Source: an uncultured Pelagibacteraceae bacterium (GTDB lineage: Bacteria; Pseudomonadota; Alphaproteobacteria; Pelagibacterales; Pelagibacteraceae). From it: a stretch of DNA of 64,000 bases. Shown in pieces: positions 13,382 to 15,781 of the stretch. The stretch's first letter is position 1, and each line of letters opens with the position of its first letter. Made by a program: the position numbers and the translations under genes. The notes below the pieces were generated by a model that worked only from the letters and a program-made list of their open reading frames with translations, was not told where the DNA came from and did not search any database. The DNA lies in the NCBI GenBank assembly GCA_902596375.1, contig CACJTU010000007.1:1-64000 (forward strand). The letters run 5' to 3'.

Positions 13382-14272
13382 ATGAAAAAAAATTTTTTAA
13401 TAATTACAGGTGGTGCTGGTTTTATAGGTACAAATTTAATTAAAAAATTAGCATTAGAGACAAATTTCAATATTATAAGTATAGATAACTACTCTTCAGG
13501 TAACAAAAAAAATCACATAAAAAATAAAAGAGTTAAATATATCAAGGGTGATATACAGGATATTAAATTAATTTTAAAAAAGTACAAAAATAAAATTCAT
13601 ACCCTTTTTCATTTTGGAGAATTTTCTAGAATATATCAAAGTTTTAATAATTTTTCTGAGTGTTATGCCTCAAACATAATAGGCTCAAATGAAGTTTTTA
13701 AGTTTTGTTTAGAAAATAAAATTAAATTAGTTTATTCTGCGACTTCTGCAAATTTTGGAAATATGGGCAATGATAAAAATTTATCTCCATATGCTTTTAC
13801 AAAAGCACAAAATCTAGAATTATTAGAAAATTTAAAAAAATGGTTTAAATTAAAATTTGAAATAATTTATTTTTATAATGTGTATGGTCCCAACCAAATT
13901 TCGGTTGGAAAAATGGCAACTGTAATTGGTATATTCGAAGATCAATATAAAAGAAATAAATCACTAACTGTTGTAAAACCAGGAACACAATCTAGAAGAT
14001 TTACTCATGTTAATGACACTATTGATGCTTGTTTTTTTGCTTGGAAGAAAAACAAGTGTAGGCATTATAGTATCTCAAATAAAAAAAGTTACTCAATTTT
14101 AAATGTAGCTAAAATGTTTAACAGAAAAATTAAATTTTTGCCGGCAAGACCAGGTGAGAGATACGCTTCTGCTCTCTCATCTCTTCATTTATCTAATAAA
14201 GTATTTAGGTTATTTGGCAAAATTTCACTCAAAAGTTATATTAAATCATTAATAAATGATGCAAAAACTTAG
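13382..14272 (+). CDS. NAD-dependent nucleotide-sugar epimerase (GalE-like SDR)
   Basis: ITGGAGFIGTNLIKKL, SIDNYSSGNKKN, YNVYGPNQ, FTHVNDTIDA. Confidence 0.87.
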   Translation: MKKNFLIITGGAGFIGTNLIKKLALETNFNIISIDNYSSGNKKNHIKNKRVKYIKGDIQDIKLILKKYKNKIHTLFHFGEFSRIYQSFNNFSECYASNIIGSNEVFKFCLENKIKLVYSATSANFGNMGNDKNLSPYAFTKAQNLELLENLKKWFKLKFEIIYFYNVYGPNQISVGKMATVIGIFEDQYKRNKSLTVVKPGTQSRRFTHVNDTIDACFFAWKKNKCRHYSISNKKSYSILNVAKMFNRKIKFLPARPGERYASALSSLHLSNKVFRLFGKISLKSYIKSLINDAKT

Positions 14273-14282
14273 ATTTTCATAG

Positions 14283-14310
14283 TTTACAATATTATTTTAT
14301 TAGATATAAG
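14283..14310 (+). promoter_or_regulatory. Putative sigma70-type promoter for the 5S rRNA (TTTACA - 16 bp - TATAAG)
   Basis: -35 TTTACA 14283-14288, -10 TATAAG 14305-14310; expected TSS falls at about 14316-14317, the first base of the 5S terminal helix. Confidence 0.5.
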
Positions 14311-14315
14311 GACAT

Positions 14316-14431
14316 CGCCGGTGATTATTGCGAAAGTGTTATACCCGATCCCATTTCGAACTCGGAAGTCAAGCCTTTCAGCGCTGATGGTACTTTGTCT
14401 TAAGACACGGAAGAGTAAGTCATCGCCGGCA
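14316..14431 (+). rRNA. rrf: 5S ribosomal RNA
   Basis: Conserved CCCGATCCCATTTCGAACTCGGAAGTCAAGC core; terminal helix GCCGGTGAT (14317-14325) pairs with ATCGCCGGC (14422-14430). Confidence 0.95.
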
Positions 14432-14441
14432 TTTAAAAATT

Positions 14442-14567
14442 ATGAAAATTAAAAGTTCATTAAAATCGATTAAAAAAAGAGATCTAAATTCTAAACTTGT
14501 TAGAAGAAGAGGTCGTGTTTATATTATTAATAAAACTAATCCCAAATTTAAAGCAAGACAAAAATAG
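14442..14567 (+). CDS. rpmJ: 50S ribosomal protein L36
   Basis: Hand translation [41 protein letters not shown]; below the ORF-track cutoff. Confidence 0.93.
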
Positions 14568-14572
14568 TTTTT

Positions 14573-14683
14573 ATGGATAACGAAAACCATAGAAATACTT
14601 GGAATAATTTTACAAAGTTTGTTCTGTGGGGAACTGTCGCTGTTATATTTGTTTTGGTATTAATGGCAATATTCTTATTGTAA
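14573..14683 (+). CDS. Small single-TM protein, probable aa3-type cytochrome c oxidase subunit IV (COX4_pro_2-like)
   Basis: Hand translation MDNENHRNTWNNFTKFVLWGTVAVIFVLVLMAIFLL*; located directly upstream of pntA as in many alphaproteobacteria. Confidence 0.7.
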   Translation: MDNENHRNTWNNFTKFVLWGTVAVIFVLVLMAIFLL

Positions 14684-14692
14684 AGTTCCAAA

Positions 14693-15781
14693 ATGAGAAT
14701 TGGGTCCATATTAGAAAATCAAAATTTTGAAAAAAGAATAGCGATAACACCTGAGTTAGTAAAAAAATATATATCTATCGGATTTGAAGTATGTTTGATT
14801 GAAAATTATGGTTTTCATCTTGGTATTAAAGATGAGCAGTTTAGAGATATGGGTGCTCAAATTTTCAAGGATGAGTCAGAAATTTTAAATTCTTCTGAAA
14901 TTATTGTGCAACTAGGAATGTTATCAGATAATAAATTCTCAAATATTAAAGAAAATCAGACTCTAATTGGTGTTTTAAACCCTTACAAAAACAAGGAGCA
15001 ATTAGAAAATTTGGCAAAAAAAAAAATTAATCTTTTTTCACTTGAATTACTTCCAAGGATAACTAGGGCTCAATCAATGGATATTTTATCTTCACAAGCA
15101 AACCTCGCTGGCTATAAAGCAGTTATAGAGTCTTTTGCAAATTTTGAAAAAGCAATTCCAATGATGATGACAGCAGCAGGAACAGTTCCTGCTGCAAAAA
15201 TATTAGTTGTTGGAGCTGGTGTTGCTGGATTACAAGCTATTGCTACTGCAAAAAGGATGGGTGCTATAGTTTTTGCCACAGATGTAAGAATGGCATCAAA
15301 AGAACAGGTTGAAAGTTTAGGTGGTAAATTTTTAACAGTAGAGGGTTCGGAAAATTTAGAAACTGAGGGTGGTTATGCAAAAGAGGCTTCAGACGATTTT
15401 AAACAGAAACAGGAAAATCTTTTATCCGAAACTTTAAAAAAAATAGATATAGTAATTTGCACAGCACTAATACCAGGTAAAAAAGCTCCTTTAATTATAA
15501 AAGATAAGATGATTGAAAATATGCAAGCAGGATCTGTAATATATGATCTAGCGGCAATTCAAGGTGGAAATACTGCATTTACAGAAGTTGATAAAATTGT
15601 TGAAATAAATGGGATAAAAATAATGGGAGAAAGTAATATCTTAAATAAGCTACCTGTATCTGCATCTAACCTTTATGCTAAAAATGTCTTTAATTTTGTT
15701 AATAATTTAATCGATAAAGAGAACAAAAAAATTAATATTAATTTAGAAGATGAGATTATAGAAAAGACTTTGATAAAATAA
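14693..15781 (+). CDS. pntA: NAD(P) transhydrogenase alpha subunit, part 1
   Basis: RIAITPELVKKY, LVVGAGVAGLQAIATAKRMGAIVFATDVR. Confidence 0.93.
   Translation: MRIGSILENQNFEKRIAITPELVKKYISIGFEVCLIENYGFHLGIKDEQFRDMGAQIFKDESEILNSSEIIVQLGMLSDNKFSNIKENQTLIGVLNPYKNKEQLENLAKKKINLFSLELLPRITRAQSMDILSSQANLAGYKAVIESFANFEKAIPMMMTAAGTVPAAKILVVGAGVAGLQAIATAKRMGAIVFATDVRMASKEQVESLGGKFLTVEGSENLETEGGYAKEASDDFKQKQENLLSETLKKIDIVICTALIPGKKAPLIIKDKMIENMQAGSVIYDLAAIQGGNTAFTEVDKIVEINGIKIMGESNILNKLPVSASNLYAKNVFNFVNNLIDKENKKININLEDEIIEKTLIK

Follow-up and report, generated by a model that had tools for sequence, protein, structure and literature searches.

Few bacterial groups of the ocean are as abundant as SAR11. 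In bacteria, the balance between rRNAs is usually attributed to co-transcription. The tRNAs of the RNase P-free Nanoarchaeum equitans are leaderless, their primary transcripts beginning at the mature 5' end. They resemble the SAR11 5S rRNA described below in promoter placement and differ from it in RNA, polymerase and domain of life; N. equitans lacks RNase P, and the SAR11 likeness is one of promoter position.

The separation of the SAR11 5S gene from 16S-23S by the hypervariable region HVR2 was published by Wilhelm et al. 2007 (PMC2217521), whose available excerpts concern the same locus in the same arrangement; the separation itself is therefore not new here. It has also been reported for LD12 (PMC6018831), a 5S translocation has been reported for the Arctic SAR11 strain uisw_092 (PMC12421898), and HIMB59, argued to fall outside SAR11, has its complete set of rRNA genes in a single operon (PMC3815206). 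Elsewhere, 5S lies apart from 16S and 23S in Leptospira interrogans (PMC3037291) and Thermoplasma acidophilum (PMC7761764); what sets SAR11 apart from these two is a predicted promoter that abuts the mature 5' end family-wide and a 5S gene that runs into a ribosomal-protein gene. In alphaproteobacteria, most promoters lack T at position -7, and the rRNA promoters of Rhodobacter require CarD for full activity, partly through this non-T base (PMC8407463).

The excerpts of Wilhelm et al. give an account of the split operon without a promoter, a start site, a consequence for processing or 5S-rpmJ co-transcription, and a literature search for SAR11 start-site or 5S-promoter work returned nothing relevant. 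We found no earlier description of an abutting promoter throughout the family, of a stem exchanged for a promoter, of the -7 signature common to 5S and 16S, or of the likely 5S-L36 transcript.

Isolation of the 5S rRNA gene

The window, the whole 64,000-nucleotide stretch analysed here, contains the only 5S rRNA gene found in its assembly. It lies 44 nt past the end of a co-directional gene, the last of HVR2, a hypervariable surface-polysaccharide region. The features of this junction are:

13382..14272, + strand: NAD-dependent sugar epimerase, last HVR2 gene ahead of 5S (open reading frame; PF01370, 2.7e-32)
14283..14288, + strand: -35 element TTTACA (from the sequence; conserved in 105 relatives)
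14305..14310, + strand: -10 element TATAAG, with G instead of T at -7 (first four positions kept in at least 100 of 105 relatives)
14311..14316, + strand: discriminator GACATC, six nt from the -10 element to 5S (mostly 5 or 6 nt in relatives; relatively GC-rich)
14317, + strand: predicted start of transcription, a G and the first base of helix I, accurate to 1-2 nt (from the spacing to the -10 element and the pyrimidine at -1 in relatives)
14317..14431, + strand: 5S rRNA gene (Rfam 5S_rRNA, RF00001, 89.2 bits)

The initial annotation had named the upstream gene as a sugar epimerase ending at 14272 and not 23S, which the open reading frame and its Pfam match bear out; its placing of the hexamers, of the 16 nt between them and of the first base of helix I was likewise exact. 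The single 23S gene found in the assembly is on a separate contig, G000:C5. Where a full 23S shares a contig with 5S, in five relatives, the two genes are non-adjacent, 46-62 kb apart.

One relative departs further from this layout: at L033 (G051:C1:606854-609968), 5S and 16S occupy opposite strands of one contig and are more than 430 kb apart, a displacement comparable to the translocation in uisw_092 (PMC12421898). This distant 5S still has an abutting TTTACA/TATAAC pair.

A conserved promoter element abuts 5S

Within the window alone, promoter-like sites occur at chance rate: a scan of 2.5 kb returned 13 sigma-70-like sites against 14.1 in shuffled sequence, and the 5S site was missing from the list because it has no T at -7. 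This would suit an account in which the hexamers are a chance occurrence in AT-rich DNA and 5S derives from read-through of the polysaccharide operon with trimming at both ends, as would the co-directional epimerase that ends so shortly before 5S. For comparison with relatives we used the 105 5S loci of this GTDB family (Pelagibacteraceae) for which enough sequence ahead of the gene was collected; these loci are related and come mostly from single-cell or metagenome assemblies.

When the loci were anchored on 5S, a fixed-register pattern emerged, TTTACA-N16/17-TATAA(A/G/C)-N5/6-[5S], while the far upstream region, the spacer and the near upstream region held little information. At this register, 97/105 loci matched the consensus in 9 or more of its 11 letters, compared with 1.1 loci on average (maximum 5) over 200 rounds of dinucleotide shuffling; with the register slid upstream, 0-3 loci reached this score. 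The spacer measured 16-17 nt in 96 loci, within the 16-18 nt between the hexamers of a housekeeping sigma-70 promoter, and the gap between the -10 element and 5S was 5 or 6 nt in 97. A few outliers had gaps of 3-4 or 7 nt, for example a 19-nt spacer combined with a 3-nt gap.

The initial annotation had proposed to ask whether the hexamers are kept while neighbouring sequence varies. They are, in 105 loci with about 49 distinct upstream contexts: grouping by similarity of positions -85 to -46 gave 49 groups (an approximate count), of which 45 have representatives scoring at least 9. The nearest upstream feature was a co-directional gene in 48 loci, tRNA-Val(gac) in 36 and a divergent gene in 15, and the promoter was kept behind 44, 34 and 13 of these, respectively. 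Conservation behind all three types of neighbour means that read-through from one particular neighbour is not the driver, and the divergent genes also speak against read-through as the source of 5S. Together with the fixed register, this leaves chance hexamers combined with read-through a very improbable account. Additional read-through into 5S from upstream co-directional genes may nevertheless occur. Transcription of 5S independently of 16S-23S from its own promoter, as initially proposed, is well supported by comparison, through the conservation in 105 loci and a linked outgroup that lacks the promoter (see below).

HVR2 has a different boundary where tRNA-Val(gac) precedes 5S (L003, L008, L040 and others), in most cases at a distance of about 65 nt.

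Predicted start site and the mature 5' end

The -10 element ends 5 or 6 nt before 5S, the standard spacing, which places +1 on the first G of helix I or within a nucleotide or two of it. Helix I reads GCCGG instead of GCCTGG in the window and about ten other loci; being one nucleotide shorter, it shifts the gap count by one. A pyrimidine directly precedes 5S in 91/105 loci, compared with a background of 49% in the spacer. Such a base at -1 is the usual preference at bacterial start sites, and its enrichment here suggests initiation on the first base of the helix. Position and initiator bias thus fit a transcript that would begin on the first base of mature 5S or 1-2 nt away from it, a prediction well supported by the aligned sequences.

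Alternatively, the promoter could be real but fire several nucleotides upstream of 5S or inside it, so that 5' trimming would be needed, the tight spacing being a product of genome streamlining and not of selection for an end that needs no processing. Start sites do generally wobble by a few nucleotides, and the gap is itself not fixed, varying between 5 and 6 nt with a few values of 3-4 or 7. Spacer and gap together, however, keep the distance nearly constant, and the pyrimidine-G start step is enriched. Streamlining alone is also insufficient to produce an abutting promoter, since the adjacent tRNA-Val(gac) genes have none that is consistent: good matches were scattered, in 14/36 loci and at gaps of 1-39 nt. 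We consider this alternative unlikely. No abutting promoter was found at tRNA-Met, tRNA-Arg or tmRNA of the window either; abutting promoters are not general among SAR11 structural RNAs.

A flanking stem in the linked family

As an outgroup we used a second family (f2) of the same order, represented by 12 genomes (loci L190-L201), in all of which 5S follows 23S in the same direction at 92-95 nt. A promoter at the 5S register is absent from the 12 loci, which score 2-6 of 11. Instead, the 5S flanks pair as a stem of 10-15 bp (TTTCACGTTTT...AAACGTGAAA), with energies of about -11 to -20 kcal/mol over 11 of the loci and an average of -13.6 kcal/mol for the family; L201, the remaining locus, has the same flank sequence. 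This inverted repeat around 5S is presumably a precursor-processing stem.

No such stem was found at the split loci, where flank pairing amounted to -2.3 kcal/mol compared with -2.8 in shuffled sequence; folding of 5S together with its flanks gave nothing remarkable. The absence of the stem also stands against a 5S that is cut out of a polysaccharide-operon transcript. On the simplest reading of the two families, separation from 23S would have come with loss of the stem and gain of a gene-abutting promoter. For the question of how rRNAs are balanced and 5S matures when there is no common transcript, the split and linked families provide a clean natural contrast.

Downstream genes and the predicted 5S-rpmJ transcript

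Three genes follow 5S on the same strand:

14442..14567, + strand: rpmJ, ribosomal protein L36 type B (PF00444, 7.6e-17; NF002021 above cut-off)
14573..14683, + strand: 36-aa open reading frame, cytochrome aa3 oxidase subunit IV, COX4_pro_2 (PF07835, 2.6e-11)
14693..15781, + strand: pntA, NAD(P) transhydrogenase alpha (PF01262/PF05222), which continues the likely transcription unit

In the window, rpmJ begins about 10 nt past 5S, and it follows at 7-27 nt in 80/105 loci; in the remaining quarter or so, a sugar-nucleotide epimerase mostly takes its place. No terminator was predicted between 5S and rpmJ, and the interval is too short to hold one or to hold a second promoter, which argues for co-transcription. 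Judging from this layout, a 5S-rpmJ-(COX4 subunit)-pntAB transcript that begins with 5S is most likely. The initial annotation had suggested that 5S may need little or no 5' processing. By comparison between relatives this fits the 5' end; at the 3' end processing is required, because with rpmJ so close and no terminator the mature end must be cut from the predicted 5S-rpmJ transcript.

The proximity of rpmJ, with no room for a promoter of its own, could also mean that the element serves mainly rpmJ and pntAB, 5S being a by-product of their leader. The promoter persists, however, where an epimerase follows, and 5S is single-copy, so that its supply must dominate; a leader role is accordingly hardly credible.

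A side observation concerns the COX4 reading frame, which was found in 71/105 loci and is exactly 36 aa long in 68. It contains nearly all of the Rfam pntA candidate RNA (RF01810, 14569-14630), and substitutions in the motif region fall mostly at third codon positions. From this pattern, the published pntA RNA motif may be a small conserved gene, or may be RNA and gene at once.

The -7 position and rRNA balance

Among 101 clear -10 elements of the 5S loci, the -7 base was A in 62, G in 30, C in 9 and never T, even though T is about as frequent as A in the surrounding DNA. The elements therefore depart from the classical sigma-70 consensus, which has T at -7, and agree with the alphaproteobacterial variant that lacks it. 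The 16S promoter, CTTGATT-N16-TATAAG, is conserved in most genomes examined and likewise has no T at -7; it lies roughly 200 nt upstream of 16S, with a leader of variable length.

CarD was encoded in 21/22 genomes searched, as a stand-alone protein with a CarD_C domain in the one genome checked; the window's own assembly, 87% complete, gave no match. SAR11 is thus like Rhodobacter sphaeroides, with its CarD-activated rRNA promoters (PMC8407463), in having a non-T base at -7 of both 5S and 16S and in encoding CarD; CarD activation in that paper is that of Rhodobacter, SAR11 does not appear in it, and the likeness drawn here is one of sequence. By this analogy, we infer that 5S and 16S-23S may share CarD activation. 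Promoters lacking T at -7 are widespread in alphaproteobacteria, and the feature is therefore not specific to rRNA genes and no proof of coordination.

Gene dosage is matched, with one copy each of 5S and 16S-23S. Candidate answers to the question of rRNA stoichiometry are accordingly the single copy of each, their position normally about 50 kb apart and their membership in the same class of promoters without T at -7.

Proposed model for 5S transcription

We propose that HVR2 cuts 5S off from 16S-23S and that a housekeeping-sigma promoter, TTTACA-N16/17-TATAAR, directly abutting the gene would drive its transcription. The primary transcript would begin at the first base of mature 5S, or one or two nucleotides before it, leaving little or no 5' trimming. 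Transcription would then continue into rpmJ, or into the sugar-nucleotide epimerase in about a quarter of relatives, and cutting in a short AU-rich spacer would generate the 5S 3' end. A CarD dependence common to 5S and 16S, equal copy number and nearby positions might keep output in step, the more conjectural part of the scheme. As a joint explanation of an own abutting promoter, a start at or just before mature 5S, run-on downstream, 3' cutting and coordination through CarD, copy number and position, we hold this model to be very probable.

A bolder version goes further: 5S would have turned into a leaderless primary transcript, the promoter having replaced an ancestral stem; its 5'-triphosphate would be kept, or lost only to a pyrophosphohydrolase; and 5S would head a 5S-L36 transcript coordinated with 16S-23S by CarD. 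We put this forward tentatively, as a possibility that is somewhat doubtful in its entirety. It makes specific predictions that are testable in existing isolates, namely 5'-pppG ends, a 5S-rpmJ transcript and CarD dependence.

Occurrence beyond the family

Across about 85,000 species genomes, the pattern without T at -7 abutting 5S gave at least 120 matches, and among the 80 matches listed all but one belonged to Pelagibacteraceae/Pelagibacter. No canonical promoter with T at -7 (TTGA..TATAAT) abutting 5S was found in the same number of genomes, although the pattern was strict and this is weak evidence of absence. The one exception among the matches listed (L261) is contig PBAM01000003 of an Acidimicrobiaceae MAG, which carries a SAR11-like 5S promoter together with an epimerase; this contig is probably mis-binned.
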